Source of the DNA: Bacillota bacterium
GTDB lineage: Bacteria; Bacillota; Dethiobacteria; DTU022
Assembly: GCA_012840855.1 (NCBI GenBank)
Contig: DUVX01000041.1
Span: forward strand, 1 to 45,726
Direction: 5' to 3'
DNA length: 45,726 nucleotides
Made by a program: the position numbers and the translations under genes. Position 1 is the stretch's first letter; each line of letters opens with the position of its first letter. Below are positions 9,833-27,862 of the stretch, piece after piece. The notes under the pieces are model-generated. The model saw nothing but the letters and a program-made list of their open reading frames with translations. It made no database searches and was not told the DNA's origin.

Positions 9833-9884
9833 CTGGTATGCGCCTATAAACACGCACCTCCCTCTCTCCACGAAGGCTTAGTAC

Positions 9885-10050
9885 GTCTTTTACAGGCAGG
9901 TTTCCTGGCTTCCGTTCATCCCCGGGAGCGGCCTTCCCACGCCTGACGGCGAAGTGGCTCTCTGTCGCTCCAGAGTCCCGGTTACAGTGGCGGGACCGCG
10001 CAGGACTTGCACCTGCTTCCCTTATAACCCTTAACTGGGCACCTGTAAAA
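9885..10050 (-). ncRNA. cobalamin (AdoCbl) riboswitch aptamer
   Basis: Minus strand reads GGGAAGCAGGTGCAAGTCCTGCGCGGTCCCGCCACTGTAACCGGGA...GGAAGCCAGGAAACCTGCCTGTAAAA, i.e. the canonical core and B12 box. Confidence 0.95.
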
Positions 10051-10225
10051 TTAATCTTTCAACTCAAGTGTAACCGATTACGTCGCAAAGGGCAAGCCCT
10101 TTCTAAACTTTCAAATTTGCTGACTTCTCTAAAATCGAGTACTGCCGCTTCGCTTCCCTTTATTTTTAAGACAGGGGAAGGCATCCAGTGTAAGCTCGCT
10201 TGGCGGTGTTAAATATAACTCATCT

Positions 10226-10882
10226 TTAGCACCGGTTTCTATTAACGCCTAGGATGGAATCGAAAAGGGGAATAATATTTGTCGTATCGGTGGCTGAATA
10301 ATCAGCTCCAACATATTCACAGGTCTGTTCATCGGCGGCATAACCCCCGATGATAACAGTGACTTTTTCCCGAAGCCCCTCATCATCCAGAGTATCGATG
10401 AGTTCTTTGACAACAGCGGTGCAATTTGTAAGCAAAAAGCAGATACCGATAATTCTTGCCCCGCTTTTCCTTGCTGCTTCCACAAACTTTTCTTTAGATA
10501 CGTCCACTCCAAGATCGATCACGCTGTAGCCCGAAGAGCGCAGAAGAAAGATGACTATATTCTTGCCCAAATCATGGATGTCACCCTCAATAGTACCGAT
10601 AACTATTTGCGGTTTATTGCTAATGCTGTTAACACCGCATTCCTCAACGGGCAAAAAGGGTTCGACTAATTCCGTTATTTCTTTGAGAATGAACTCGCTC
10701 ATGACCAGATCAGAAAGAAAGTACTCTCCATCCTGGTAACGTTTACCCACCATCTCGACACCGATGCGACAGCTTTCAATAATATCCACCACCGGGACCC
10801 CATCAGACAAGTATTGTTTGGTCAGGGAAGTAGCGCTATCGATCTCTAAAGAACTAATCGCCCTAATTAGCGGTTCAAACAT
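10226..10882 (-). CDS. methyltransferase cognate corrinoid protein (B12-binding)
   Basis: 218 aa; EGDIHDLGKNIVIFLLRSSGYSVIDLGVDV (DxHxxG B12 motif) plus N-terminal helical cap. Confidence 0.92.
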   Translation of the reverse strand: MFEPLIRAISSLEIDSATSLTKQYLSDGVPVVDIIESCRIGVEMVGKRYQDGEYFLSDLVMSEFILKEITELVEPFLPVEECGVNSISNKPQIVIGTIEGDIHDLGKNIVIFLLRSSGYSVIDLGVDVSKEKFVEAARKSGARIIGICFLLTNCTAVVKELIDTLDDEGLREKVTVIIGGYAADEQTCEYVGADYSATDTTNIIPLFDSILGVNRNRC

Positions 10883-11654
10883 CGCTCAGGCCCTCCTCCG
10901 ACTTCTTTAGTTCATCTAGGTTCCAGCCGCCATAACTGACAAAACGGTAGTGCTTACCGTTAAAAACAGATTTTCCCCAGGCGATCACCTTGTTATCCTG
11001 ATCGTAGATCGTCTCGGTCATGAAAAAGACGGGGTAATTATGCTCGATGTCAAGGACAGCCGCTTCATCTTTGCGGGCGCTGGAGGCCATCAAGATCCGC
11101 TTTGTTCGCGAGGGTAAATTCTCGCTGTGCTGCGAAGCGATGCGGGTGAGAGTCATATCCCTGAGCTGGTTTTCGATAAGGGGGGCTTTCTTAGTGTAGA
11201 TTGTATAATAGGTTTTGTAGATCAGGGGGATTCGTCCTGTCCTGGTAACTATACGGCAAAATAGGCAATGAGTCCCTTTATCTATCCGGAGGCGGGTGCT
11301 GATGGGTTCTTCAGCTTTGATAATTCTGCACTCAAGGAGATGTGTAGACATGGGTCTATCGTAACCCAGATCTTCAATGCGCTGATTCAGGCTAAAGGCA
11401 ACCTCATCCAGCTTAGGCTCGGCCACAAAGGTCCCCTTCCCCTTGACGGTGTAAACCATACCGGCCGCCGCCAGTTCGCTGATCACCCGGCGCACCGTCA
11501 TCCGGCTAATTCCGAGCTGCTCGGAAAATTCCATCTCTGTAGGCAGCATATCACCGGGAACAAGCTCACCAGAGAGAATCAAGCCCTCAAAATGCTTGAA
11601 TAACTGATGATAGATGGGGATAAAGGAGCCTTTGTCCAACTTCGGTTGCTTCAT
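10875..11654 (-). CDS. GntR family transcriptional regulator, HutC/UTRA type
   Basis: 259 aa; N-terminal wHTH (GDMLPTEMEFSEQLGISRMTVRRVISELAAAGMVYTVKGKGTFV) and UTRA-like effector domain; 8-nt overlap with the downstream corrinoid gene. Confidence 0.9.
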   Translation of the reverse strand: MKQPKLDKGSFIPIYHQLFKHFEGLILSGELVPGDMLPTEMEFSEQLGISRMTVRRVISELAAAGMVYTVKGKGTFVAEPKLDEVAFSLNQRIEDLGYDRPMSTHLLECRIIKAEEPISTRLRIDKGTHCLFCRIVTRTGRIPLIYKTYYTIYTKKAPLIENQLRDMTLTRIASQHSENLPSRTKRILMASSARKDEAAVLDIEHNYPVFFMTETIYDQDNKVIAWGKSVFNGKHYRFVSYGGWNLDELKKSEEGLSDV

Positions 11655-11805
11655 AACGCCTCCACAGGGCTTATGCCCTAACCTGTTTCATATGTTTAAT
11701 AGCAGCTTATGGTTCTGTCGCTATTTTTATCTTAATTGTAGGTTCCCTCTCTGTCAATGTGAGCCTTGAAAAGCATTCAAAGTATGAAAACAATATCCGG
11801 GAACA

Positions 11806-11837
11806 TGCCGGCGCTCCCGTGATTGAGAGCGCCGGCA
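11806..11837 (-). promoter_or_regulatory. strong intergenic hairpin without a T tract
   Basis: Perfect 11-bp arms TGCCGGCGCTC ... GAGCGCCGGCA with a 10-nt loop, between the methyltransferase and gntR genes. Confidence 0.6.
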
Positions 11838-11865
11838 AGAATGATTTCAGCAGATTTTAGATAAA

Positions 11866-13101
11866 CTAAGCACCAAATTCGCGAGTGGCATCGACCCAGG
11901 CTTGAAGCAGCTCCGGTTTGGCCTCATCTAGCACAGTGGAAGAAGCCATGATCAAACCCTTCCCTTCAAATATCTCAATGGCCTTTTTGGTCTGCTGACG
12001 CACCGTCTCCACAGTACCCGTTTGTAATAAAGAAACAGGCATGCCTGCAGCCACACACATAACGTCCCCTAATTTATTCTGGAGCATCTGCAAATTAGAG
12101 CGGTCGAAGTGGCCAATGATCTTGCCGGCAGGCAGTTCTCTAAGATAATCGAGGCGTTGCTCATAGATCCCTTCGAAAACAGGCATTGGGGTTAAGCCGG
12201 CATCGATAAGATCACAAATCATTTGCTTGAGATAAGGCCAGTAGAACTTTTCAAATTGCTTCATTGACATGAAACCATCTGAGCCGCGGTGCAGTGCGAT
12301 AAATACATGCTTGTTACCCGAAATTGTTGCCCCCTGTACTGCAGCACCCAGGAGCAAGGGGTAAAATTTTTCCATTGCAGCTATCAGCTTATCCGGCACC
12401 TGGAACATATCGATCATTGCTCCACGCATACCGCGTAGAAAATCAGAGATCACATCAAAGGGTACAACAGTGAGTGCACCGCCAGCGTAAAGTTGCCCCT
12501 CATCGAGCATTCCAGCGTGGGCTGCGCCTATCTTCATGACAAAATCCGCTGCCGGTTTGGACATCTCTAGTAATTTTTGCATTGCACCAGCAACTTCAGG
12601 GTCAAATATTGCCATCCCAAAAAGGTTTGGGCTGAGATGTCCAAGCGATAAAGCTTTTAGCGGAGGCAATTTAGCGAGGCCCTTCAAGTTACTAAAAATA
12701 CGTGGCACAAATACTCTGAGGAGATAATCCGAAGGATCATCAAGAAAATGATCGTATTCCTCTTGGAGCATATATTCTCCCTCTACAAACTGATGAGGAA
12801 GATTATCGGACAGTGAGCCTCCGGGCCACTTCACAGAGACAGTTCCTAGTATTTCATGAACGGTTGCATCCCCCTGATTCGGTTGGTCGATCATAAAGTA
12901 CATGTCGGGGTCATATCTTCTTACGAAATTACGGTTTGCTTCAATCCAACCATCGATATTATAGTGAGCATCCTTGTAAGTTAGTCCTTCTGTCCTAGCT
13001 GGCATGTAATTTTGCATAAGGAAAATGGGTACCCTGTCCGGCTTCTGCAGTGCAACGGCATCAGCAATTCGCTTTCTTTTTTCCTGAAGCTTTTTATTCA
13101 T
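11866..13101 (-). CDS. uroporphyrinogen decarboxylase (UroD)-family corrinoid methyltransferase
   Basis: 411 aa UroD-like fold motifs (KPDRVPIF, PMPVFEGIYEQRLDYLRELPAGKIIGHFDRSNL), flanked by cognate corrinoid proteins. Confidence 0.83.
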   Translation of the reverse strand: MNKKLQEKRKRIADAVALQKPDRVPIFLMQNYMPARTEGLTYKDAHYNIDGWIEANRNFVRRYDPDMYFMIDQPNQGDATVHEILGTVSVKWPGGSLSDNLPHQFVEGEYMLQEEYDHFLDDPSDYLLRVFVPRIFSNLKGLAKLPPLKALSLGHLSPNLFGMAIFDPEVAGAMQKLLEMSKPAADFVMKIGAAHAGMLDEGQLYAGGALTVVPFDVISDFLRGMRGAMIDMFQVPDKLIAAMEKFYPLLLGAAVQGATISGNKHVFIALHRGSDGFMSMKQFEKFYWPYLKQMICDLIDAGLTPMPVFEGIYEQRLDYLRELPAGKIIGHFDRSNLQMLQNKLGDVMCVAAGMPVSLLQTGTVETVRQQTKKAIEIFEGKGLIMASSTVLDEAKPELLQAWVDATREFGA

Positions 13102-13102
13102 C

Positions 13103-13744
13103 CTATTTGCCTCCCGTCCATGATTTTGCCAGGTTCACCGCATCTAAGGCGCTTTCACCATATGCATCAGCACCGGCGTAGGCAACGACATCATCTGTAA
13201 CTGTACCTCCGCCAATCATGATTTTTACGCTTTTACGCAAACCTGCTTCTTCGATACCGGCAATTGTTACTTTCATGGCATCAAAGGTTTTGGTTAAGAA
13301 ACCGCTCATCCCGACGATATCGGGTTTCTCTTCGCGGATCGCCTCCACAAACCTGGCGATGGGAACATCCACCCCCAGGTCGACAACTTCAAAATTGTTA
13401 GTCTCCAGCATGAAAATTACAATATCCTTGCCGATATCGTGGATATCTCCGAAAACCGTCCCGAATACCACTTTCCCTGCCTTTTCTCCCTTATCGCTAG
13501 CTTCACCCAACTCCAACCCGGGCTTGATCACTTCGGTTATACCTTTGAGAATCTCTCCGCTCATGATCAATTCCGGTAAAAAGTATTCGCCCTTCTCGAA
13601 CAGTTTTCCTACCTTCTCCATGGCCGTCTGACAATTGCCCAGGATTCTGTTTGCATCAATACCCTCGCCAAGCAACTGCCGCGCTATCTCGACTGCTTTT
13701 TCATCCTCCATGGCCACAATTGCATCGATAAACTTTTTTTCCAT
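13103..13744 (-). CDS. methyltransferase cognate corrinoid protein (B12-binding)
   Basis: 213 aa; FGDIHDIGKDIVIFMLETNNFEVVDLGVDV; MSGFLTKTFDAMKVTI. Confidence 0.93.
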   Translation of the reverse strand: MEKKFIDAIVAMEDEKAVEIARQLLGEGIDANRILGNCQTAMEKVGKLFEKGEYFLPELIMSGEILKGITEVIKPGLELGEASDKGEKAGKVVFGTVFGDIHDIGKDIVIFMLETNNFEVVDLGVDVPIARFVEAIREEKPDIVGMSGFLTKTFDAMKVTIAGIEEAGLRKSVKIMIGGGTVTDDVVAYAGADAYGESALDAVNLAKSWTGGK

Positions 13745-14044: not shown

Positions 14045-14932
14045 TCAGAGCCCGGCAGCGGCGAGGATCTCGGGGACCACCTCTTCCCTGTTTATGGCCA
14101 TGATATGGACGCCGTCGCAAAGCGCCTCCTCTTTTAATGCTTTGATGGTCCGTCCGGCGATCTCGATCCCTTTTTCAAGCGCTTTACCTTTTGGAGCCGC
14201 CGCCATCTCGTCGATGAGCTCGCGGGGAACAAATATGCCCGGCACGTTTTCGTTCATGAACCGAGCCATCCGCGCCGATGAGAGCAGCACGATCCCGGCG
14301 AGAATCTTTACTGGAAACTGGCGGGCGTGCTCCATGAATCCGGCAAAGCGCTCCAGATCATAGATCGCCTGGGTCTGGAAGAACTCGGCCCCCGCATCTA
14401 TCTTCTTCTCGAACTTGATCAACTGCGGCTCCAGCGGCTCCGCCTCCGGGGTAACGGTGGCGCCGGCGCAGAACTCCACTGCACCCTGTAGTTCGTTTCC
14501 GCCAAAGTCGTAGCCCTCTTCCATCTGCCTGATGCCGTGCAACAGCTGAACTGAGTCAAGGTCGAAGATCCCCCTTGCTTCACCGTGATCGCCCACAGGC
14601 ACGGCGTCGCCGGTGAGGCAGAGCACATTCTTGATCCCCCTGCTATAGGCTAGGAGCAGCTCCGCCTGCAGAGCGATACGGTTTCGATCGCGGCAGGTCA
14701 TCTGCAGGACCGCCTCCCCACCCCTCTCCCGGACAGCCAGGCACCCGCCGATGGAGGGATAGCGCATCACCGAGCTCTGGTGATCGGTCACATTGAGTGC
14801 GTCAACCTTTCCCTTGAGCATCTCGATATGCTGGTACATCTTCTCTAAGGCGGTCCCTTTGGGCGGACCGATCTCGCTGGTAATCACAAACTTGTTGTTT
14901 CCCAGCGCTTTTTTCAGATCTGAAACCATCAT
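14045..14932 (-). CDS. metF: methylenetetrahydrofolate reductase
   Basis: 295 aa; FVITSEIGPPKGT, ALNVTDHQ, LCLTGD, GAEFFQTQAIYDLERF motifs. Confidence 0.93.
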   Translation of the reverse strand: MMVSDLKKALGNNKFVITSEIGPPKGTALEKMYQHIEMLKGKVDALNVTDHQSSVMRYPSIGGCLAVRERGGEAVLQMTCRDRNRIALQAELLLAYSRGIKNVLCLTGDAVPVGDHGEARGIFDLDSVQLLHGIRQMEEGYDFGGNELQGAVEFCAGATVTPEAEPLEPQLIKFEKKIDAGAEFFQTQAIYDLERFAGFMEHARQFPVKILAGIVLLSSARMARFMNENVPGIFVPRELIDEMAAAPKGKALEKGIEIAGRTIKALKEEALCDGVHIMAINREEVVPEILAAAGL

Positions 14933-14945
14933 GATCCCTCCTTTT

Positions 14946-15590
14946 TCACGAGATTCGCACTTCTCTGGGCCGGGGCAAAACCTGGTGATTCCGGGGAGGG
15001 TGATAGCGGCGCATCAGATCGAGCCGGCCCTGCTCCCTGAGCCTCTCGTAAATGAGGGTGAAAGCGCAATCCTTCTCCGGATCAACTTCACATTTGCCCT
15101 TATCAGTCCCGCCACAGGGGCCGTTGAGTAGGCCCTTGTGGCAGGCGGTGAGCGGACAGATCCCGGCAGTCTCGCCAAGAATGCACTGCCCGCACTGGTC
15201 GCAGGCTTCAAAAAAGTAACCGGGGCTCTTTTCCATGCCGATAAAAAGGGTGTCGAGAGCGGGGAGCACCGGCTTTGAGAGGTAAAGGTTAACCTGCTGG
15301 ACCCCCAGGGCGCAGGCCATGACGATAATGCACCGGGCATCCTCCACCGCTTTCTTGTTCTCTTCCAGAAGCACTGCGGTCATCTCGTCACAGGCTGTAG
15401 GGATAACTACCGCACCCGTCACCAGTTTGCCTGCCTCCTGCAGCCTCGCTTTCATGGCCCCCACCTCCTCGACACCCCCGGTTTTGGCCATAGTGGCGCA
15501 GGTGCCGCAGCCGATGATAAAAACACGATCGAGCCCGTCGCTCATACGTTTCACTTCTTCAAAACGTTTCTGCCTGGTCAGCGATTTCAT
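14946..15590 (-). CDS. metV: methylenetetrahydrofolate reductase C-terminal/Zn-FeS domain protein MetV
   Basis: 214 aa, Cys-rich (GCGTCA, CDQCGQCILGETAGICPLTACHKGLLNGPCGGTDKGKCEV), adjacent to metF. Confidence 0.9.
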   Translation of the reverse strand: MKSLTRQKRFEEVKRMSDGLDRVFIIGCGTCATMAKTGGVEEVGAMKARLQEAGKLVTGAVVIPTACDEMTAVLLEENKKAVEDARCIIVMACALGVQQVNLYLSKPVLPALDTLFIGMEKSPGYFFEACDQCGQCILGETAGICPLTACHKGLLNGPCGGTDKGKCEVDPEKDCAFTLIYERLREQGRLDLMRRYHPPRNHQVLPRPREVRIS

Positions 15591-15602: not shown

Positions 15603-18600
15603 TTATCTTTCCAGGTCGCACCGCAGGCAACGACCGCTTTCCTGCCGGGCTTGCGCCTCTGCAAGGCCCAGTTCTGTCTCCCTGAAATTGTTGACCCGCT
15701 CTTCAAAAGGTAGCCGAGGAATCTCCGGGCGGAATTTTTCTTCCCAGGTCTCCTCTTCTTCGGGGCGGGTCTCCTCATCGTCAACGGTCTCTGGCTTTTG
15801 GTCGTACATCTCCACCCGGGATGGATCATCCCTTAAGTATTTATCGATCGCCAGAGCGCCTCTCCTGCCCGCGGCGATGGTCTCGATGACCATGCCCGGC
15901 CCGGAGACGAAGTCACCTCCGGCAAAGACGCCAGGTACATTGGAAATAAGGGTATTTTCATCGACCAGGAGCGTCTCCCAGCGCGTTCTTTCCAGGGCGC
16001 TGTCCGGCGGCAGGAAGGAGAGGTCCGGCGCCTGGCCCACGGCGGCGAAGATGGTATCGGCAGGCAGGAAAAATTCGGAGCCGGGGATGGGCCGGGGCCG
16101 CCGGCGGCCCCGGGCATCGGGCTCGCCCAGCGCCATACGGGTGCACTGCAGGCCCGTGACCTTCCAGTCTTCGCTGACAATCCGTGTCGGCGCCGCCAGA
16201 AAGAGGACTTGCGCGCCTTCAGCGAGGGTCTCCTCGTATTCCATCCGGGAGACGGGCATCTCTTCCCGGGAGCGGCGGTAGAGGATGATCACCTCCCCTG
16301 CACCGAGCCGCAGGGCGCTCCGGGCCGTATCGAGGGCGACATTGCCGCCGCCGATGACGACGACGCGGTCGCCGATATTGACATCCTTGCCCACCTTGAT
16401 ATCCCTGAGAAAGCGCAAGCCGTAGTGAAATCCTTCGAGATCCTCAAGCTCTCCGGGGATTCCGATACGCTGGCTTTTTTGGGCGCCGGCGGCGATAAAG
16501 ATAGCCCTGTAGCCCTCATTTTTCAGCTCTTCCACGGTGAAGTTGATATTGATCGGCGAGTTGTAGTTGATCTTCACGCCGCAGCGGGCGATATGGGCGA
16601 TCTCTTGCTCGATGACCTCGCGGGGCAGGCGAAAGTCGGGTATGGCTACCGAGAGCATCCCACCGCCCACAGGGAGTGCCTCGAAGACGGTGACGGGGTA
16701 ACCCATCCGGGCCAGAAAGTAGGCGCAGGAAAGGCCGCAGGGACCGGCGCCGATAACGGCGACCTTCTGGCGGTGGAGCACGGCAAAGGGCTCCTGCGGC
16801 GGCAGCTCGGCAATATTGTCAAAGTACCAATCAGCGGCAAAACGCTTCAGCGCTTTTATTGCCACCGGGTCGTCGAGCTCGCCGCGACGGCAGCGCTCCT
16901 CGCAGGGATGGTGGCAGATCCGGCCGCAGATGGCGGGAAAGGGGTTGCGCTCCCGGATTGTCTCCACCGCCTCCCTGTAGCGGCCCTCTTTGATCTGGGC
17001 CACATAGCGGGGAATATCGATGCCCACCGGGCAGGTATGCTGGCAGGGCGAGATCATCAGCGCATCGCAGACGGCGGCGGGACACTTTTTTTCCCTAATA
17101 TGAGCTTCATACTCATGGCGGAAATACTCCAGCGTGGTAAGAACGGGGTTGGGGCAGGTCTGGCCCAGGCCGCAGAGCGAAGTCTCCTTCACTGTCCGGG
17201 CAATGCTCAAAAGGGTGTCAAGATCCTCATCGCGACCCTGGCCCCGGGTGATCCGCGTCAGGATCTCCAGCATCTGCCTCGTACCCAGGCGGCAGGGGGC
17301 GCATTTACCGCAGGACTCTTCCTGCGTGAAGCTGATAAAGTAGCGGGCGATCTCCACCATGCAGGTGGCATCGTCCATCACCACCATCCCGCCGGAGCCC
17401 ATGATCGAGCCCAGCCGGGCCAGCGATTCGTATTCGACGGGAGTATCGATGAAGCGGGCGGGGATGCACCCCCCTGAGGGGCCGCCCGTCTGAACCGCTT
17501 TGAACTGCTTGTCGCGGGGGATGCCGCCCCCAATATCGAAGATGATCTTAGAGAGGGGTGTGCCCATGGGCACTTCGACGAGGCCGCTGTTGTTGATCTT
17601 TCCCGTCAGCGCAAAGACAGCCGTGCCCCTGCTCTTGTCGGTGCCGAGACCGGCGAACCACTCCGCTCCCCGCGCTAAAATGGCGGCGGCGGTGGCCAGG
17701 GTCTTGACATTGTTGATGATCGTGGGCCTGCCGTCAAGCCCCGATTGGGCGGGGAAGGGCGGGCGCGGGCGGGGCATCCCCCGGCGGCTCTCGATGGAGG
17801 CGATCAGCGCCGTCTCTTCGCCGCAGACAAAAGAGCCCGCTCCTTCCTGCACGTGGATTGTGAAGTTGAAGCCGCTCCCCAAGATGTTTTCTCCTAAAAA
17901 GCCGGCCGCGCTCGCCTGCTCCAGAGCGCGGCGCACGCGCTTTACCGCCAGGGGATACTCGGCGCGCACATAGATAAAACCTTCATCGGCGCCGGTAGCG
18001 TAACCAGCAATGGTGATCCCTTCGATGACAGCGAAGGGATCGGCCTCCAGAATGGAGCGATCCATGAACGCGCCCGGGTCGCCCTCATCGGCATTGCAGA
18101 TTACGTATTTTTTCTTCCCGGGGGCGCTGCGGCAGAACTGCCACTTGCGCGCCGTGGGAAAACCGGCGCCGCCACGGCCGCGCAGCCCTGCCCTTTCCAG
18201 GGTAGCGATCACTCCTGCGGGGTTCATTTTGAGGGCTTCTTTCAGGCCGTCGTAACCGCCCCACTCTACGCTGTCGTCAATGCTCTCTGGATTGATATGT
18301 CCGCAGCGCTGCAGGATCACCCGCTGTTGCTGCCGGTAAAAATTGATCTCCTCATAGCGCGGCAGCGACCGCCCGGTGACGGGATCGACATAGAAAAGCC
18401 TCGCCACCGGTTTGCCCCCCCGTAGGTGGGAGTGGACTATCTCCGGCAGATCTTCCACCTGCACTTCGGTGTAAAATATTCCTTCCGGCTCCACCACGAC
18501 GATGGGGCCCTGTTCACAGAAGCCATGGCATCCGGTGTAATCCACCGTCACTCCGGAAAGCCCCTGTCTTTCCACCTTGGCCTGAAGCGTCCGGAAAAGC

Positions 18601-18662
18601 TCTGCGGAGCCGCCGGCCTGACATCCCGTACCGCGGCAGATCAAGACCTTATGCCGGCTCAT
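15603..18662 (-). CDS. NuoF-like NAD(P)H dehydrogenase (51 kDa) fused to GltD/NfnB-like FAD-NAD(P) oxidoreductase
   Basis: 1019 aa; thioredoxin-like [2Fe-2S] domain, GRGGAGFPTARKW, ESCGKCAPCRLGT (NuoF), then CQHTCPVGIDIPRYV and VAVIGAGPCGLSCAYFLARMGYPVTVFEA (GltD-like). Confidence 0.93.
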   Translation of the reverse strand: MSRHKVLICRGTGCQAGGSAELFRTLQAKVERQGLSGVTVDYTGCHGFCEQGPIVVVEPEGIFYTEVQVEDLPEIVHSHLRGGKPVARLFYVDPVTGRSLPRYEEINFYRQQQRVILQRCGHINPESIDDSVEWGGYDGLKEALKMNPAGVIATLERAGLRGRGGAGFPTARKWQFCRSAPGKKKYVICNADEGDPGAFMDRSILEADPFAVIEGITIAGYATGADEGFIYVRAEYPLAVKRVRRALEQASAAGFLGENILGSGFNFTIHVQEGAGSFVCGEETALIASIESRRGMPRPRPPFPAQSGLDGRPTIINNVKTLATAAAILARGAEWFAGLGTDKSRGTAVFALTGKINNSGLVEVPMGTPLSKIIFDIGGGIPRDKQFKAVQTGGPSGGCIPARFIDTPVEYESLARLGSIMGSGGMVVMDDATCMVEIARYFISFTQEESCGKCAPCRLGTRQMLEILTRITRGQGRDEDLDTLLSIARTVKETSLCGLGQTCPNPVLTTLEYFRHEYEAHIREKKCPAAVCDALMISPCQHTCPVGIDIPRYVAQIKEGRYREAVETIRERNPFPAICGRICHHPCEERCRRGELDDPVAIKALKRFAADWYFDNIAELPPQEPFAVLHRQKVAVIGAGPCGLSCAYFLARMGYPVTVFEALPVGGGMLSVAIPDFRLPREVIEQEIAHIARCGVKINYNSPININFTVEELKNEGYRAIFIAAGAQKSQRIGIPGELEDLEGFHYGLRFLRDIKVGKDVNIGDRVVVIGGGNVALDTARSALRLGAGEVIILYRRSREEMPVSRMEYEETLAEGAQVLFLAAPTRIVSEDWKVTGLQCTRMALGEPDARGRRRPRPIPGSEFFLPADTIFAAVGQAPDLSFLPPDSALERTRWETLLVDENTLISNVPGVFAGGDFVSGPGMVIETIAAGRRGALAIDKYLRDDPSRVEMYDQKPETVDDEETRPEEEETWEEKFRPEIPRLPFEERVNNFRETELGLAEAQARQESGRCLRCDLER

Positions 18663-19143
18663 GGTCCTCCCCCTTTCTTTTGAGGATCTGGCCCACTTTT
18701 TTGGGATTCATCCGTCCAAATACTTGCTGATTGATCATCATGCTCGGCGCCAGGGCACAGACGCCTAGGCAGGCCACTGTCTCCAGGGTATACTCCAGAT
18801 CTGCTGTAGTCTCGCCTTCTTCGATATCGAGCCGTTCCTTGATGAGTTTAAGGATGGTTTTACCGCCCCGGACATGGCAGGCGGTCCCCCGGCAGAGTCG
18901 GATGGTATTGCGTCCCCGGGGCTCGGTATAGAGCTGGGCGTAGAAAGAGATGACCCCCTGCACCGCGCTGGGGAATATCTTCAGCTTTTCGGCAATCACG
19001 GGGATCACCGCAGGATCGATATAGCCGTTTTCCTCCTGGATCTCCTGGATCAGCGGTATTAGTGCCCAGCGTCCCCGGCGGCAGTGCTCTTCGATGATCT
19101 CTTCAAGCCGTGACCGGCTCATCTCATGATGCTCCCGATCCAT
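18649..19143 (-). CDS. nuoE: NuoE-like 24 kDa [2Fe-2S] subunit
   Basis: GYIDPAVIPVIAEKLKIFPSAVQGVISFYAQLYTEPRGRNTIRLCRGTACHVRGG...CLGVCALAPSMMINQQVFG; four conserved Cys; overlaps both neighbours. Confidence 0.93.
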   Translation of the reverse strand: MDREHHEMSRSRLEEIIEEHCRRGRWALIPLIQEIQEENGYIDPAVIPVIAEKLKIFPSAVQGVISFYAQLYTEPRGRNTIRLCRGTACHVRGGKTILKLIKERLDIEEGETTADLEYTLETVACLGVCALAPSMMINQQVFGRMNPKKVGQILKRKGEDHEPA

Positions 19144-21802
19144 CGTTCCCGCTCCTTTCTATGCGGACATAACATTTTTTCAGCGCTGAAGACAGTGCGT
19201 CCTCCTCTACCGGTGAACTGAAAAGAGCAGCCAGGGGGTGATCGATGCGGGAGCGGGGCAAAGAGAGAACCCCCTCGGGAAGGGCTCCGTCGCAGCTCAC
19301 CACCGCCGTCAGCCGTCCGTTCTCCGAAATGATCGCTACAACATCGCCCGACTGCAGCGCCAACCTGCGGGCATCGGCCCGGTTCATCTTCACAAAACAG
19401 TAGTGCGGGGTGAAGCGGCTCAAACGCGGCGAGCGGGCACTCCTGGAGCCGCTACCTGCATGAAACAGGGTGCTCTCCGCCAGCAGTATGAAGGGATAAT
19501 CCGGGTTCGGCGCCGGAGGGGGAAGCAGATCACCTATCGCCGTAAAGGCAGGAAATCTTTTCAGAGGCGGTTTCCGGTCGGGCCCGCTTTCCCAAAAAGC
19601 ATCTCCCTCGAGGTTCACTTCGCTCCCCTCATCTCTGTAGAAGGGGATCAGATCCTCGATCTCCTTGCGGATCTGCCCCGGAGAGGAGAAGGGCAGCGGA
19701 TGATCCATCGCCGCAGCCAGCTCCAGAATGATTTGCCAATCAGGCCTGCATTCTCCGGGCGGGTCGACGGCCCGCCGTATCTGGCGCACTCTTCCGTCCA
19801 GGCCGGTGAAAGCGCCTTCTTTTTCTGCAAAGGAGGCTGCCGGCAGGATTACATCAGCCAGCCCGGCGGTATCGGTCATGAAGATATCGAGGACCAGGAG
19901 AAAATCGAGCCCACCCAGTGCCTCTTTAACACGCGAGGATCTGGGGAAAGCAGCAGCGGGGTTCTCACCGGCCACGATCATCCCCCTGATTTCCCCCTTT
20001 TCGGCCGCAGTAATCATCTCCGCAGCGCCTTTTCCCGGAGCGGTGGGTAGGGTGCACCGCCAGCGCGCTTCGAATCTTTCCCGGGCCGGCGGATCCTGTA
20101 GATCTTGACGGCCAGGTAAAAAATTGGGCAGCATCCCCATGTCGCCGGCGCCTTGGGCATTGCATTCCCGGAGCAGCGCCCAGATCCCGCCCCCTTCTCG
20201 CCAGATATGCCCTGTCAGCAGGGCAAGGTTGAGCAGCGCCTTCACCGCTTCAACACCCCGGGCCTGCTGCATGATCCCCGTGCCAAAAACGATCGCCCCC
20301 TTGTCGGCGGTAGCATAAAGCCTGGCGGCGTCAACAATCTGCGCTGCGCTGATACCCGTTGCCGCTGCAGCGCTCTCCAGGGAAAAACCCTCCAGAGAGC
20401 GGAGCAGCGCCCGGTAATTTTCCGTTTTGCGGGCGATAAATTCCCGGTCCGTCAGATTCTCCTCAATAATCACCGCAGCCATCGCCTTCAGCAGGGCCAG
20501 ATCGGTGCCTACCGCGGGTTGTAACCGGCGGTGAGCGAAAAAAGCCAGCCCCGTTTCCCGGGGATCGATGACGATGAGCTTCGCTCCACCCGCTGTAACA
20601 GCCCTCCTGATCCCGTAATCGACGAGCGGCGCTGAGGCCGTTGGATCGGCGCCGATAACGATGATCAGATCGGCCAGGGCCAGATCGCCCAACGGGTAAG
20701 TCACGGTGGGGAAACCGACAACTTCATGGAAGCCCCGGCGGGCGGCAGCGTAATAGAGGCTGCTGCCATTGTCGAGATTATTTGTTCTTAGGACGGTGCG
20801 GGTAAATCTTTGGAAAAGGTAATTCTCCTCATTGGTGCAGTTCGCTGACCCGAAAAAAGCCAGGCTTTCTGCTCCCTGATCCTTCCTGATTCCCTGCAGG
20901 GCCGCTGCAGCCACCGCCAGCGCCTCTTTCCAGGAGGCTTCCCGGAAGCCCTCCCCCTCCCGGATGAGCGGTACAGTCAGCCTTTCAGGGCTATGGATGA
21001 AATCACAGCCGTAACTTCCCTTAACGCAGAGGCTTTCCGGCGCGCCCGGATCCTTTCCTGGCATGACGCGGACCACCCGGTTATCTTTCACCTCCAGAGA
21101 GATGCTGCAGCCGCAACTGCAATAGGGGCAGATCGATTCCACGGCGCTGCCCACGCTGCCCCGGTAGAGCGGCTCTTTCTCCATCAGAGCGCCCGTGGGG
21201 CATAAAGCGACGCAGGTTCCACAGAAAGTGCATGCCGAATTTTCCAGGGGGGCCTGAAAAAGGGTCGCCGCTTTGGTCTTGAAGCCCCGTCCGAAGTAAT
21301 CAAGGGCCCCCACTACCACCAGCTCCTGGCAGGCCCGAATACAGCGGGCGCAGAGGATGCACTTGCTCCCGTCCCTCACCAGGAAGGGGTTAAGCTCTTC
21401 GGTAACGGCCGCCTGCGGGATCCGGTCCAGCTCGATCAACCCGATCCCCAACTCCGCCGCCAGCTGGCGCAGCTCGCAGCGGTTGCCCTTGTCACAGACG
21501 AGACAGGAGTCAGGATGGCTGGCCAGCATCATCTTCAGGATCATCCGGCGGTGCTCTTGAACCCGCGGCGATCTTGTATTGATAATCATCCCCGGTGCGA
21601 TGGCCGTGACGCAGGAGGCCAGCAGGGCGCCGTTGGCTTCATTTTCGACAATGCAGATACGGCAGCCGCCCAGAGGGCTGAGCAAAGCATGGTGGCAAAG
21701 CGTGGGGATAGCGATGCCCGATTCCCGGGCCAGCTCCAGTATGGTCTGCCCTGGGGGTCCGCTTACCTCTTGCTGATTGATGGTTAACGTTACCGCTTGC
21801 AC
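19124..21802 (-). CDS. FdhA/NuoG-like molybdopterin oxidoreductase-family subunit with non-canonical active site
   Basis: GTG start at 21802 (MQAVTLTINQQEVSGPPGQTILELA); [2Fe-2S] and 4Fe-4S Cys motifs, CPYCSCGCS, CTNEENYLFQ, ECNAQGAGDMGMLPNFLPG; Tyr-Tyr at the Sec/Cys-His position. Confidence 0.9.
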   Translation of the reverse strand: MQAVTLTINQQEVSGPPGQTILELARESGIAIPTLCHHALLSPLGGCRICIVENEANGALLASCVTAIAPGMIINTRSPRVQEHRRMILKMMLASHPDSCLVCDKGNRCELRQLAAELGIGLIELDRIPQAAVTEELNPFLVRDGSKCILCARCIRACQELVVVGALDYFGRGFKTKAATLFQAPLENSACTFCGTCVALCPTGALMEKEPLYRGSVGSAVESICPYCSCGCSISLEVKDNRVVRVMPGKDPGAPESLCVKGSYGCDFIHSPERLTVPLIREGEGFREASWKEALAVAAAALQGIRKDQGAESLAFFGSANCTNEENYLFQRFTRTVLRTNNLDNGSSLYYAAARRGFHEVVGFPTVTYPLGDLALADLIIVIGADPTASAPLVDYGIRRAVTAGGAKLIVIDPRETGLAFFAHRRLQPAVGTDLALLKAMAAVIIEENLTDREFIARKTENYRALLRSLEGFSLESAAAATGISAAQIVDAARLYATADKGAIVFGTGIMQQARGVEAVKALLNLALLTGHIWREGGGIWALLRECNAQGAGDMGMLPNFLPGRQDLQDPPARERFEARWRCTLPTAPGKGAAEMITAAEKGEIRGMIVAGENPAAAFPRSSRVKEALGGLDFLLVLDIFMTDTAGLADVILPAASFAEKEGAFTGLDGRVRQIRRAVDPPGECRPDWQIILELAAAMDHPLPFSSPGQIRKEIEDLIPFYRDEGSEVNLEGDAFWESGPDRKPPLKRFPAFTAIGDLLPPPAPNPDYPFILLAESTLFHAGSGSRSARSPRLSRFTPHYCFVKMNRADARRLALQSGDVVAIISENGRLTAVVSCDGALPEGVLSLPRSRIDHPLAALFSSPVEEDALSSALKKCYVRIERSGNDGSGAS

Positions 21803-21896: not shown

Positions 21897-22646
21897 TCAG
21901 CAGGCCATCCTGATCGCTTCGAGCAGCTGGGAGCTGACACTTTTCTTGGGAATAAAATCGAAGGCTCCCGCCTCCCTGCTGGCAGCAATATTACCCTCAT
22001 CATCGTACTGGCTCAGCACCAGCACTTTCACATCCTTGCAGCGCTCCGTGATTCGCCTCATCGCCTCGATCCCGTTCAGTACCGGCATGGCGATATCCAT
22101 AAGCACCACATTGGGAAGCAGCGCATCGGTCTTTTCGATAGCATCCTCTCCGTTCACCGCTTCACCGACAATGAGCATATCTTTTTGTAGATTCACCAGG
22201 GCGCAGATCCCCTCTCGCACCACGGCATGATCATCGGCGACAAGCACCCTGATTTTCCGCGTTGCCTCATCGAGCATCTTCTCGATAAAGGAGACGAGCA
22301 CGGTGAGCTTGAGCGGGCGGGCAAAATAATCGGCTGCGTCCAACCTCATCCCTTCATCCCTTCGCCAGCCGTGGAGAAGCTGTTTTTCGTGGGGAACATC
22401 GACGACGACGATGGGCACTGTACTCGTGACCGCTGTCCTCTTTAACCACTGGTGCAATTTAAAGGCATCGCCGCGGGGCCTGATGGAACCCAATACGATC
22501 AGCTGCGGTTTATCCCTTCGCACCGCCTCCCGGGCCTCCGTTTTCGTAGCGGTGACAGATACATCACTCCCTTTTTCCTGCAGCATCGCTCTCAGATCGG
22601 CGGTAAACTCCCGCTCATCATCGACAATAAGAATCCTCCTCGTCAT
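21897..22646 (-). CDS. double-receiver response regulator without output domain (first receiver degenerate)
   Basis: 249 aa; MTRRILIVDDE...LIVLGSIRPRGDAFKLHQW (Gly at the phosphoacceptor site) followed by a complete NarL-type receiver (VLVADDHAVVREG...VVLMDIAMP...PKKSV). Confidence 0.88.
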   Translation of the reverse strand: MTRRILIVDDEREFTADLRAMLQEKGSDVSVTATKTEAREAVRRDKPQLIVLGSIRPRGDAFKLHQWLKRTAVTSTVPIVVVDVPHEKQLLHGWRRDEGMRLDAADYFARPLKLTVLVSFIEKMLDEATRKIRVLVADDHAVVREGICALVNLQKDMLIVGEAVNGEDAIEKTDALLPNVVLMDIAMPVLNGIEAMRRITERCKDVKVLVLSQYDDEGNIAASREAGAFDFIPKKSVSSQLLEAIRMAC

Positions 22647-22843: not shown

Positions 22844-22870
22844 TAAAAAAAACCGCTCCTTGCGGAGCGG
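22844..22870 (-). terminator. rho-independent terminator for the ABC-2 transporter operon
   Basis: Minus strand CCGCTCCGCAAGGAGCGGTTTTTTTTATCC. Confidence 0.85.
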
Positions 22871-22929
22871 CGTGGGACAACGGGGACGGACGGTCCTTTA
22901 GGTCCCATCCTTTCTTTCTACCGGCACAA

Positions 22930-23745
22930 TCACTCCAAATTAAGCCTTCGATTCAGGATATGATTGGTGATGAAAAAGAAGCAACCAGAAAGGATGGCGG
23001 TGGGCAGCAGCCAAAACCAGGCGATTATGAGATTGATCCTGGTTGGATCTGCTGCTATATCAGCAAAATCAATCGACCACGTCTGGCTTAAAAACAAGGC
23101 CATGCTTATGCCAAGCAGTAGAGCCTTTAGGGCGAAACTGAGAACGGCGTACCAAGCTAAAGAAGCAAGAAGCCTGTATCTTGGGGAAAGATGGCCAAGT
23201 GCGATGGCGGCGTAGATCATCAAAATGCTCGAGACCAGGGTTAACAGGGCTGCGCCGGGAAACAGAAACAGCCCCGCTGAGCCAAAAATATCCCTGAAAG
23301 CGAAAAGAGTTTCCCAAACCCGCGGCCACGGGGCAGCCTTTGCGGAAAGAAGCAAGATCGAGCCTGTAGTGACAAGACCGCTTGCAATTACCCAGACCGT
23401 GGCCGTGATCAGTTTGCTTACAATATGCTGCCATAGGGGCACCGGAAGGGTGAGCATGAGATAGCCCTCATCACCGAACAGATTTTTGTTAAATCTCTGA
23501 ATCATAACCAGCAGGGTAGCGACGAGCACACCGGCAACCAGGATAAAATAGATCAACCGCAACAGCAGAACGAGGGAGCCCACCGCCCCGGCGATCCCGA
23601 AGGGAGGGGCCATCGACTCAAGCCTGGACAGCATCTCGAAACTGAGAAACCTGTTGATTAAAGCAAAAAGGATCAATACCAGGTAGAAGGGCAGAAATAT
23701 ACGGGCGGTAGCCCTGAATTCATGTTTTAAAAGCCTGGTCAACAT
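22930..23745 (-). CDS. ABC-2 type transporter permease
   Basis: 271 aa, about six TM segments; overlaps the ATPase gene start/stop. Confidence 0.85.
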   Translation of the reverse strand: MLTRLLKHEFRATARIFLPFYLVLILFALINRFLSFEMLSRLESMAPPFGIAGAVGSLVLLLRLIYFILVAGVLVATLLVMIQRFNKNLFGDEGYLMLTLPVPLWQHIVSKLITATVWVIASGLVTTGSILLLSAKAAPWPRVWETLFAFRDIFGSAGLFLFPGAALLTLVSSILMIYAAIALGHLSPRYRLLASLAWYAVLSFALKALLLGISMALFLSQTWSIDFADIAADPTRINLIIAWFWLLPTAILSGCFFFITNHILNRRLNLE

Positions 23746-24440
23746 CTGAATACCTCCCTGAAAAGAGCATCTACCGATTTCCCGCTTTCTTCACGAATTT
23801 TGTCTACGGTTTTATTCAGGATAATCCGACCCTCCTTGATAAAGATAACCTGCTCCAGGATTCTTTCGATGTCGGCAATAAGATGGGTGGAAAGAACGAT
23901 CGTCGCTGCCGGATCATAGTTGGCCAGGATGACATCAAGAATGAAATCCCGGGCGGCGGGATCAACGCCGCCGATGGGCTCGTCAAGCAGGTAAAGCTGC
24001 GCTTCGCGACTCATGACGAGGATAAGCTGAACCTTTTCTTTGGTCCCCCGGGACATGGTTTTGAGGCGATCACTCCTCTTGATATTGAGTTTCTGGAGCA
24101 TATTGCCGGCTTTATCCTTGTTGAAGTCCGGGTAAAAATCTGCAAACAAATCGATAATATCGCAGACCTTCATCCAATCATTTAGATAGGATCTTTCCGG
24201 AAGATAGGAGACTAACCTTTTACTCTCCATCCCGGGTTTATAGCCTGCGATACGTACCTCCCCGCTGGTAGGGCTGAGAAGTTTGTTGCAGAGTTTGAGA
24301 AAAGTGCTTTTGCCGCTGGCGTTGGGACCCAACAGCCCAACGATACTGCCGCAGGGAATATCCAGAGTGACCCCGTCTACCGCAGTGACGGCGCCAAATG
24401 TTTTGGTGAGGTTGCTGCATTCCAGGATGGCGCTGCTCAT
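23739..24440 (-). CDS. ABC transporter ATP-binding protein
   Basis: 233 aa; GLLGPNASGKSTFLKL, SRGTKEKVQL, LYLLDEPIGGVDPAARD. Confidence 0.95.
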   Translation of the reverse strand: MSSAILECSNLTKTFGAVTAVDGVTLDIPCGSIVGLLGPNASGKSTFLKLCNKLLSPTSGEVRIAGYKPGMESKRLVSYLPERSYLNDWMKVCDIIDLFADFYPDFNKDKAGNMLQKLNIKRSDRLKTMSRGTKEKVQLILVMSREAQLYLLDEPIGGVDPAARDFILDVILANYDPAATIVLSTHLIADIERILEQVIFIKEGRIILNKTVDKIREESGKSVDALFREVFRC

Positions 24441-24847
24441 TTTTTATTCTCCTTCGCTAATTTTGATAAGGCCGCCAGGATCTCTTCATAGTCAAATCCC
24501 AACCGATGCATCCGATCGAGGAATTTCCGAGCGTGTTCCCTGGCAAGCCTTTGTTTAACCTGCTTCACCAGTTTTTCATCCTTCGTAACGAACCTGCCGC
24601 TCGTGCGGATGGTAAACAGCAGACCGCTTTCTTCCAAACCCGCCAGCGCCCGCTGCATAGTGTTCGGGTTGACCGAAGCCTCCCGAGCCATCTCACGGAC
24701 TGGCGGCATCTTTGAACCCCGTGGATAGATTCCTGCACAGATCTTCAGTTCGATCTGCTCGGTTAGCTGAATATAGATGGGGCGATCCGGGGTCAACTCC
24801 CAGGGCAACTGTCTCTCCCCCCCTTTTTGTATTATTGTATTAATCAC
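24437..24847 (-). CDS. GntR family transcriptional regulator, YtrA-type
   Basis: 136 aa from GTG; IYIQLTEQIELKICAGIYPRGSKMPPVREMAREASVNPNTMQRALAGLEESGLL. Confidence 0.92.
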   Translation of the reverse strand: MINTIIQKGGERQLPWELTPDRPIYIQLTEQIELKICAGIYPRGSKMPPVREMAREASVNPNTMQRALAGLEESGLLFTIRTSGRFVTKDEKLVKQVKQRLAREHARKFLDRMHRLGFDYEEILAALSKLAKENKK

Positions 24848-24972: not shown

Positions 24973-25761
24973 TCAGCAGCCTGGTGAGTAATGGCGGAGC
25001 CGCTGCCTTGACCGCCGCGCTGTCCTGATCGCCTTCAGAAGCTCGGTGCTGACGCTCTTTTTGGGGATAAATCCGAAAGCGCCCGCCTCCCAGCTGCTGC
25101 CGATATGGTCTTCATCATCGTGCTGGCTCAAGATCAAAACCCGGACATCTTTGTACCGGTCCTTGATCAGCTTCAGTGCTTCGATTCCGTCGAGCTGGGG
25201 CATCATGATATCCATGATCACAACGTGTGGCAGTAGCTGATCAGTTTTTTCAAGGGCTTCCCACCCGTCTGCCGCTTCCCCGACGATGAGCATATCTCTT
25301 TGCAGATCGAGCAGGGCGCGGATCCCTTCCCGGACAAGAGCATGATCATCGACTACGAGTACGCGGATCTTGCGGGAGCTGTGCACCAGCTGCGTTTCTA
25401 TAGCCGCCACGAGCTGGGAAAGATCTAAGGGCCGGCAAAAATACTCCTCCGCATCCAGCCTGATTCCTTCATCCCTGCGCCAGCCATATCCCTTCTTTTC
25501 GTCGCAGGGGAGATCGACTACGATCATCGGCAGGCTGCCCGTCACCGGCCTGCTTCTAATCCACTGGTGTAGTTTGAAAGCATCGCCGCGGGGGGTGAAC
25601 GCTCCCAGGACGATTAGCTGCAGGGTCCTGCTTTCGATGATCTGCTGCGCCTTGCACCGGTCGCAGGCGATAAAGATGCGGCAGCGCCTTTTTTTTAGCT
25701 CCTCGCGAAGCCCCACGGTAAACCGATCATCCTGATCCACTATGAGGATACTCCTTTTCAT
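24973..25761 (-). CDS. double-receiver response regulator without output domain (paralog of 21897..22646)
   Basis: 262 aa; same layout, LIVLGAFTPRGDAFKLHQW in the first receiver, VVIMDIMMP and PKKSV in the second; no HTH. Confidence 0.88.
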   Translation of the reverse strand: MKRSILIVDQDDRFTVGLREELKKRRCRIFIACDRCKAQQIIESRTLQLIVLGAFTPRGDAFKLHQWIRSRPVTGSLPMIVVDLPCDEKKGYGWRRDEGIRLDAEEYFCRPLDLSQLVAAIETQLVHSSRKIRVLVVDDHALVREGIRALLDLQRDMLIVGEAADGWEALEKTDQLLPHVVIMDIMMPQLDGIEALKLIKDRYKDVRVLILSQHDDEDHIGSSWEAGAFGFIPKKSVSTELLKAIRTARRSRQRLRHYSPGC

Positions 25762-25832: not shown

Positions 25833-26507
25833 TTACATGGAGATAATTTTTTTGCGCAGGGCATATTTGATCAGCTCTGCGCGGTTTTTGAGCGCCAGTT
25901 TGGTCATGAGCCTGCTACGATGGCTATCTACTGTTTTGGGGCTGATTACCAGTATTTCAGCGACCTTTCGCGCCGTATGGCCCTCCGCCAGCAGGCGAAG
26001 CACCTCTTTTTCCCGCTCCGTGAGCTGTTCATAAGGATCGCTTCCTTTCTTTTGCTCGGTGCCCCGCTGGTAGCTTTCCACGAGATGCTTTGTCGCCGAG
26101 GGCGAAAGGTAAGAATCGCCGCGGTAAACAGCGCGGATTGCCGAGATCAGCTCGGTAGAAGCTGCCGACTTGTTCAGGAAGCCGTGGGCCCCGGCCTCAA
26201 GGATGGAGAGAACATGCTCCTTGTGATCATACTGAGTCAGGATGAGCACCTTTATCTCCGGAAATTCCCGGCAGATATTGCGGGTGGCCTCGAGCCCGCC
26301 CATTACCGGCATATCCAGATCCATCAGGATCAGATCGACGGGCTCCCTTCTGGCGATCTCCATCGCTTCGTTTCCGTTACCGGCCTCGCCCACTATCTCG
26401 ATGCCCGGCGAGATCTCCAGCAGGGCGGAGACGCCCTCCCGGACGATGGTATGATCGTCGGCTAAAAGCACCTTTATCGTTGCCACGCTTTTAGAAACCC
26501 CCTTCAC
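25833..26507 (-). CDS. NarL/LuxR-family response regulator
   Basis: 224 aa; receiver (LADDHTIVREG, LILMDLDMP) and LuxR HTH (LTEREKEVLRLLAEGHTARKVAEILVISPKTVDSHRSRLMTKL). Confidence 0.95.
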   Translation of the reverse strand: MKGVSKSVATIKVLLADDHTIVREGVSALLEISPGIEIVGEAGNGNEAMEIARREPVDLILMDLDMPVMGGLEATRNICREFPEIKVLILTQYDHKEHVLSILEAGAHGFLNKSAASTELISAIRAVYRGDSYLSPSATKHLVESYQRGTEQKKGSDPYEQLTEREKEVLRLLAEGHTARKVAEILVISPKTVDSHRSRLMTKLALKNRAELIKYALRKKIISM

Positions 26508-26545: not shown

Positions 26546-27862
26546 TTAACTCAGGGGGATCATGGCGATGACCGTGGTGCCTTTGCCCGGCTGCGAGCGT
26601 ACCGAGCAGTCTCCCCCGATCAGCTTCATCCTCTCTTTGGCAATGATCAGGCCCAGGCCGTGCCTTCTCTTCTGATTATTCATCTGGCCTATTTTGGAGA
26701 CGTCAAAGCCGACGCCGTCATCATCGATGCGGAGCTCCAGCCGGTTACTTTTTCTCTGTAATGCGATCACCACATGGCGGGCCTGTGAGTGCTGGGCAAT
26801 ATTGCCGACGATCCCCTGAACCCAGCGAAACAGGTTCACCTCGTCTTCCGGTGAAAGCGGAGCCGTCACTCCGGCAAGATCGAAGGATATCTTGATATCC
26901 AGCGGTGAGAGAGAAGACTCGGCATAATGGCGAATAGCCGGGATAAAGCCCAGTGAATCCAGCAGGGTGGGGCGAAGATCGGAGATGATCCGGTTGACCT
27001 CGTTGTTGATCTGCACCGCAGCAGTATGAACCTTTGTCAGCAGGGTCATGAACCCCTCCTCCTTGAAACCGCTGATCCTGGCCATCTCGATAAGTGTTTT
27101 TAAGTTAAGCGTCAGCGCGGCGAGCATCTGGCTGGTTTCATCGTGGAGTTCCTGGGAAATTCTTTTCTTCTCCTTCTCCTGAGCGGTGATTACTTGGCGT
27201 GCCACATCACGATACCTCTCTCTTTTCTCTTGCAGGCGTTCGTGAAGCCGAAAATGCCCGATAGCGAAGCCCAGTTGATCGCCGATGGAGTGCAGCAGAT
27301 GCATATCATTCTCGGTAAAATGCCGCACCTGCGGGCTGGCACAGTTGAGCACGCCCAAAACTGCGCCCCTGAAGCGAAGGGGGACGCTGATAAAAGCGCG
27401 CAGACCCTCGGTTCTGATCAGATCGCTGTGCAAAACCTCCGGTTCCTCCGAAATATCGTCCAGCAGGATCGCTTTACCGGTGGAAGCGACCCTTCCGTTC
27501 ACCCCTTCCCCCAGTTTGACCGACATCCTCCGGGCAAACTCATCGGATAGCCCCTTGTAGACACGATAGGTCAGACTCTGATTCCCCTTATCGAGCAGCA
27601 TGATACCGCCGTAGCTGCCGCCAATAAATTCAAGGGTCTTCTCTACCCCCACCCCCAGGATAGCGTCCAGTTCGCTTAAAGCGCTCACCGTGGAGGTGAT
27701 CTGGCTTAAGATCAGGAGTGCATCGGAACTTTTTCTGGCATCGCTCTTTTCCCGCACCGCCGGATCCGTTAAAACGATCCCCCCCCCGGGATTTTTGCCG
27801 TGTACATCGCCCGTTGCAGGATGATCCTTTCCATTAAGCATCTTATTTACCCTCCCGCTCAA
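26546..27862 (-). CDS. GAF-domain sensor histidine kinase, NarX/DegS-like (HisKA_3)
   Basis: 438 aa; GAF region (GKAILLDDISEEPEVLHSDLIRTEGLRAFISVPLRF), RISQELHDETSQMLAAL, HATPase (LRIDDDGVGFD, GLGLIIAKERMKLIGG). Confidence 0.93.
   Translation of the reverse strand: MSGRVNKMLNGKDHPATGDVHGKNPGGGIVLTDPAVREKSDARKSSDALLILSQITSTVSALSELDAILGVGVEKTLEFIGGSYGGIMLLDKGNQSLTYRVYKGLSDEFARRMSVKLGEGVNGRVASTGKAILLDDISEEPEVLHSDLIRTEGLRAFISVPLRFRGAVLGVLNCASPQVRHFTENDMHLLHSIGDQLGFAIGHFRLHERLQEKRERYRDVARQVITAQEKEKKRISQELHDETSQMLAALTLNLKTLIEMARISGFKEEGFMTLLTKVHTAAVQINNEVNRIISDLRPTLLDSLGFIPAIRHYAESSLSPLDIKISFDLAGVTAPLSPEDEVNLFRWVQGIVGNIAQHSQARHVVIALQRKSNRLELRIDDDGVGFDVSKIGQMNNQKRRHGLGLIIAKERMKLIGGDCSVRSQPGKGTTVIAMIPLS

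Follow-up and report, generated by a model that had tools for sequence, protein, structure and literature searches.

The gene at positions 21897..22646 (−) of the window, the whole 45,726-nucleotide stretch of DNA that was analyzed, encodes a 249-aa double receiver protein, RR2a, in which Pfam recognizes two Response_reg stretches and no other domain (PF00072, 121 bits for the whole protein against a curated cut-off of 30.2; 38.5 bits for the first domain alone). Receiver domains, pseudo-receivers and output-less regulators are all known kinds of protein. The first domain, Rec1 (aa 1–128; 22263..22646 (−); PF00072 E 1.4e-9 and an AlphaFold model), reads IVLGSIRPRGDAFKLHQW, with a glycine at the phospho-Asp position (Gly53; codon 22488..22490 (−)) that is followed by a PRGDAFKLHQW motif (aa 57–67; 22446..22478 (−)), an aspartate (Asp83) at the position of the switch Thr/Ser, and a GWRRDEG motif (aa 93–99; 22350..22370 (−)). 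The second domain, Rec2 (aa 130–249 plus stop; 21897..22259 (−); Pfam, conservation and fold match), has D138, D139, D184, S212 and K234 all present. According to Pfam, a GerE/LuxR helix-turn-helix (HTH) is absent from RR2a and from a second copy in the window, RR2b, and present in the neighboring NarL-type regulator; the assignment of either copy as a NarL-type transcription factor was rejected for want of a C-terminal LuxR/GerE HTH match. No GGDEF domain was matched by Pfam in RR2a either, which is therefore not a PleD-type Rec-PsR-GGDEF protein, and the DVU0259 family (NF045717) was discarded as well (Rec1 36.8 bits versus an NCBIfam cut-off of 160, profile positions 1–83 of 117).

RR2a heads a gene set for a methylenetetrahydrofolate reductase (MTHFR) complex. 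Its stop codon lies 94 bp upstream of the GTG start at 21802 (the start giving MQAVTLTINQQ) of an FdhA/NuoG-like molybdopterin subunit without the Sec/Cys residue (19124..21802 (−)), after which come a NuoE-like subunit (18649..19143 (−)), a NuoF-GltD fusion comprising an NADH module and an FAD/NAD module (15603..18662 (−)), MetV (14946..15590 (−)), which has no NCBIfam match and was assigned from its place in the gene set and its homology to the MetV proteins of related clusters, and the methylenetetrahydrofolate reductase MetF (14045..14932 (−)). Formate dehydrogenases carry Sec/Cys-His at a position where the FdhA/NuoG-like protein of the window and 36 homologues from related loci have Tyr (NN[ILV]DN..xLY), with a homologue in L164 that has Cys as the single exception. 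As the Sec/Cys residue is missing, the protein is probably not a formate dehydrogenase but a NuoG-like subunit for electron transfer.

The second copy, RR2b (24973..25761 (−), 262 aa), is a paralogue of RR2a, 57% identical to it and likewise a double receiver that bears both Rec1 motifs. It belongs to a kinase unit, in which it directly follows a NarL/LuxR-type response regulator (25833..26507 (−); Pfam) and a GAF-HisKA_3-HATPase_c histidine kinase (26546..27862 (−); Pfam) that has a strong promoter-like site upstream (27953-27924). This unit is parted from RR2a by genes for a GntR regulator, an ABC ATPase and a permease (22930..24847 (−); named by sequence inspection), an insert between RR2 copies that was not seen in other RR2 clusters, and by a terminator-like hairpin with a T tail (22852..22871 (−); pattern match only) between the GntR-ABC genes and RR2a.

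An earlier note, made from the letters of the window alone, had described RR2a correctly throughout with respect to its position, the glycine, the motif, the intact second receiver and the 94-bp gap; it had missed RR2b, and its label “FdhA-like” is doubtful. The doubts that it had raised about its own reading came to nothing: the motif does not occur only once but recurs in RR2b and in homologues (a family of 72), the 94 bp that alone lie 3′ of RR2a hide no C-terminal HTH, and ordinary output domains were found in none of the double-receiver homologues.

The Rec1 family and its closest known relatives

A search of 60 relatives with the RR2 sequence gave 16 further full-length homologues, and Rec1 profiles (A3, then A4) were used for family searches of genomes. 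Altogether 72 distinct members from Bacillota and Dehalococcoidia were kept, among them 65 double receivers, counts that include close relatives and stem from genomes that are nearly all apparently metagenome-assembled, many with short contigs. With the Rec1 profile, members were found in 21 of the 98 genomes of the window's class, in three distant Bacillota genomes, with four more in the class of genome G370, and, within the class to which a Dehalococcoidia genome belongs, in 46 of 393 genomes. Among 350 genomes drawn evenly from the phylum of that class (around G628), members occurred solely in two genomes that were already known. One match in the window's class (G014) proved to be an ordinary receiver on inspection and was left out of the 21, and three other candidates (L004, L085, L091) were rejected as ordinary receivers that keep the phospho-Asp and lack GW..EG. 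The 72 also exclude weak tandem matches to the Rec1 profile (about 90 bits) in L145, where two short receivers directly follow a second, paralogous MetF-like gene (G628:C51:42749-43614); these may be intermediate between Rec1 and receivers of the ordinary kind. Stand-alone Rec1 proteins of about 160 aa (L014:8189-8686, L153:2253-2729) are encoded divergently from a 39–40% identical MetF paralogue that has its own NarL regulator and kinase.

Conservation separates the two domains of the 65 double receivers. In Rec1, Gly53, P57 and G93-W94 are present in 65/65, W67 in 64/65 and D83 in 63/65, and Rec1 still has D9 in 64/65 and K or R at position 110 in 65/65. In Rec2, D139, D184 and S/T212 are found in all 65, and D138 and K234 in 64 each. 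Rec1 is a pseudo-receiver that has lost key phosphotransfer residues and has receiver topology in the model, and Rec2 is, as judged by its residues, a catalytically intact receiver. Since Rec1 is consistently dead and Rec2 consistently intact across the double receivers, this state is the outcome neither of chance nor of decay.

The AlphaFold model of RR2a (65 sequences; mean pLDDT 88.5, pTM 0.69) consists of two receiver folds, with the final helix of Rec1 as the link between them; PRGDAFKLHQW maps to the β3-α3 loop and α3, and GWRRDEG to β4-α4. The tandem receivers of PleD were the best fold match, together with LiaR and DesR for Rec2. PleD from Caulobacter (Rec-PsR-GGDEF), the top match in both fold and sequence, also has a receiver and a pseudo-receiver in tandem, and phosphorylation of one of its receivers alters the contact with the other. 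However, the order is reversed in RR2, where the pseudo-receiver comes first, the GGDEF output is absent, and the whole-chain superposition of PleD on RR2a is poor (TM 0.40–0.45, rmsd about 15 Å). Rec2 fits the receiver structures of the NarL/LiaR/DesR/VraR family (LiaR rmsd 1.0 Å over 115 columns), but the LuxR-type HTH of that family is not part of RR2.

How bacterial pseudo-receivers work is described as largely open (PMC12632262). FrzS from Myxococcus resembles Rec1 in having no phospho-Asp (profile match to 2gkg, E 1.7e-13), and its pseudo-receiver binds SgmX through α3-β4-α4 (PMC12632262), the same face that bears both Rec1 motifs here; it differs from RR2 in its architecture, in its partner SgmX, which serves motility, and in having neither a second receiver nor a link to MTHFR. 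CmrT of Clostridioides difficile, like RR2, is a pseudo-receiver protein beside an otherwise normal kinase and regulator (CmrS/CmrR; PMC12632262), but it belongs to the OmpR family of regulators and carries a DNA-binding domain, whereas RR2 has no such domain and is tied to an enzyme. The Rec1 family as such is not present in NCBIfam or Pfam: NCBIfam matches to Rec1 fall far below cut-off, and Pfam, at the cut-offs applied, does not detect Rec1 in the MetF fusion proteins of L094 and L114. Literature searches returned no paper on the family and none that pairs a pseudo-receiver with the Wood-Ljungdahl pathway, so that the family is not described in the libraries or literature searched.

Linkage and fusion to MTHFR genes

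Family members were collected by Rec1 profile or RR2 sequence and not by MTHFR, and 65 of the 72 have an MTHFR-complex gene on the same contig. Of the remaining seven, six are cut off where their contig ends, and the sole real orphan is L051 in genome G038, an RR2b without this MTHFR cluster. When gene types are assigned by best match to window proteins, two layouts can be distinguished: kinase, NarL regulator, RR2, FdhA/NuoG, NuoE, NuoF-GltD, MetV and MetF (type I), and kinase, NarL regulator, a GltD-Fer4-FlpD protein, MetV, MetF and RR2 (type II). RR2 is placed before the FdhA/NuoG-like gene or after metF, and remains linked to metVF as the electron-input module varies. Two loci (L182, L184) have RR2 after metF and no adjoining kinase, and a single clade (L110, L111, L113) has its genes for the kinase and the NarL regulator beyond metF on the opposite strand.

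A MetV-MetF core with exchangeable electron-input subunits is likewise found in HdrABC-MvhD-MetVF of Moorella and RnfC2-MetVF of A. woodii (PMC5736913, PMC8760232), although, unlike in the RR2 clusters, no receiver subunit is described for these complexes. Two genome papers mention regulatory genes beside metF or a hydrogenase: a two-component system “phoBR” flanks metF_1 in the marine Chloroflexi cell DscP3 (PMC5736913), and in Syntrophaceticus schinkii a receiver gene adjoins a NiFe hydrogenase.

Of the class's 98 genomes, 21 contain Rec1 and 21 a MetF of the window's type (identity of 71% or more); 20 contain both, and each is alone in one genome (Fisher p 1e-18, ignoring relatedness). Gene neighborhood as such may come from co-expression alone. 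Three genomes also have Rec1 fused to MetF, at the C-terminus in G370 and G482 and at the N-terminus in G373, whose fusion chain also holds a MetV-type C-terminal domain. The G370 fusion adjoins NiFe hydrogenase genes and metV, and neither it nor the G482 fusion contains Rec2 or is accompanied in its genome by an orthologue of the NarL regulator. Both C-terminal fusions keep G53, D83 and GW and have lost the PRG..F.LH motif, so their docking face may differ. A model of a natural MetF-Rec1 fusion (pTM 0.81 over 427 residues) hints, if weakly given its short linker, shallow alignment and lack of an error matrix, that Rec1 takes up a defined position on MetF; a fold search with it matched ordinary MTHFR barrels only.

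At L095:5382-9737, genes for both subunits of a NiFe hydrogenase (small and large), for MetV and for a MetF-Rec1 fusion follow one another in a single run and constitute a hydrogenase-linked MTHFR with a built-in pseudo-receiver. In L094:7279-9826, Rec1, MetF and a MetV-type C-terminal domain form one chain, the start of which is overlapped by a second, free Rec1 gene.

The Rec1 family is very probably dedicated functionally to MTHFR. Because relatives of RR2 stand beside MTHFR or are fused to it, RR2 probably controls the enzyme by touching it. The earlier note had proposed control by protein contact rather than by transcription, and this claim now has strong comparative support in the MTHFR linkage across two phyla and the three Rec1-MetF fusions, from which the contact itself is what we infer.

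Eukaryotic MTHFR has a C-terminal SAM-binding regulatory domain, and the C-terminal fusions place Rec1 after the MetF barrel. Rec1 could accordingly be pictured as a small-molecule sensor that would bind folate, flavin, quinone or a nucleotide and act as an allosteric MTHFR domain at the place of the eukaryotic SAM domain; the largely invariant G53, D83 and G93-W94 outline, with the retained D9 and K/R110, a former active site, and quinones bind near the β3-α3 loop of the KaiA pseudo-receiver (PMC12632262). We regard such sensing as very unlikely, as Rec1 bears no known ligand-binding signature and its charged conserved residues suit protein docking equally, and it would in any case be compatible with RR2 acting as an adaptor.

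The neighboring kinase and a possible route of control

Rec2 resembles the receiver of the neighboring NarL-type regulator, with a mean identity of 53% within loci versus 41% to 11 other NarL-type receivers; the window pair is 42% identical (about 50% in related loci). The two have in common an unusual Gln at T+1 and 65–68% identity in the kinase-facing β1-α1 region. A tree of few columns and 11 outgroup rows groups Rec2 with the NarL receivers, which supports their kinship and not which of them came first. Tree distances of RR2 correlate with those of the kinase (r = 0.85, n = 49) and of MetF (r = 0.67, n = 37), values to which shared ancestry contributes as a confounder. The trees of the kinase and of MetF resolve types I and II, and that of RR2 almost does. 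Genome G038 (96% complete) has a GAF kinase beside RR2b, and the NarL regulator is without an orthologue there (best 38%); RR2 is therefore likely the partner of that kinase.

The likeness of Rec2 to the NarL receiver in the β1-α1 region and at T+1, and the usual adjacency of kinase, NarL regulator and RR2, would fit a phosphate sink or damper, in which Rec2 competes with the NarL receiver for the kinase and so shapes transcription, with Rec1 merely stabilizing or dimerizing the protein. The earlier note had offered this as an alternative; it has come out the weaker one and we consider it unlikely, because G038 has RR2 and the GAF kinase without a NarL orthologue, G370 and G482 fuse Rec1 to MetF with neither Rec2 there nor a NarL orthologue, and the position of RR2 against FdhA or MetF is left unexplained. 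The signal might also run in reverse, with Rec1 sensing the occupancy or redox state of MTHFR and RR2 altering the kinase or pairing with NarL in feedback on operon expression. The same linkage data fit this possibility, the likeness of Rec2 to the NarL receiver is enough for hetero-pairing, and there are proposals of pseudo-receivers that act on the two-component system to which they belong (PMC12632262); as it does not explain the G370 and G482 fusions without Rec2 or an orthologous NarL regulator, reverse flow is in our judgment distinctly unlikely.

An MTHFR-dedicated adaptor, with Rec1 for the enzyme and Rec2 for the kinase, is the reading we prefer, because of the Rec1-MetF fusions without Rec2 or NarL, the kinase with RR2 without NarL, and the constancy of RR2 across electron modules; to its full mechanism we give an even chance. 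Points against it are the loss of PRG..F.LH from the C-terminal fusions, the RR2b of G038, which occurs apart from such an MTHFR cluster, the place of the window's RR2b in the kinase unit, and the clade whose kinase and NarL genes lie beyond metF on the opposite strand. Rec1 would use its α3-β4-α4 face to dock on the MTHFR complex, with MetF or MetV as the likeliest subunit to be bound, and Rec2 would be phosphorylated by the neighboring GAF-HisKA_3 kinase, which would also serve the NarL-type regulator. Once phosphorylated, Rec2 would change the seating of RR2 on the enzyme and so alter the activity or assembly of MTHFR. The methyl branch of the Wood-Ljungdahl pathway would in this way come under rapid control, alongside slower regulation of transcription through NarL. 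More tentatively, and with somewhat less than even confidence, we propose that in two phyla the MTHFR of the Wood-Ljungdahl pathway has Rec1 as a dedicated regulatory domain: a two-component kinase would act on the enzyme directly and post-translationally through the receiver/pseudo-receiver adaptor, at the structural site that the SAM domain occupies in the eukaryotic enzyme. No post-translational two-component control of the pathway was found in the literature searched.

The family offers a pseudo-receiver for which a candidate target (MetF/MetV), a kinase and naturally occurring fusions can all be named. MTHFR makes methyl-tetrahydrofolate in CO2-fixing anaerobes, and the findings bear on how the methyl branch could be switched or throttled in acetogens and syntrophic acetate oxidizers that live near the energy limit.

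Two further observations concern the surroundings of RR2 in the window. RR2b groups with the RR2 proteins of G001 and G038 (98–100% SH-aLRT) and the adjacent kinases group likewise, which suggests that kinase and RR2b split off or moved as one unit. After MetF, two corrinoid proteins, a GntR regulator and a methyltransferase-like gene (10226-13744 (−)) form a methyl-group input beside the MTHFR cluster, and an ordinary cobalamin riboswitch (RF00174, 114 bits; 9878-10061 (−)) lies upstream of a BtuFCD-like ABC transporter set.
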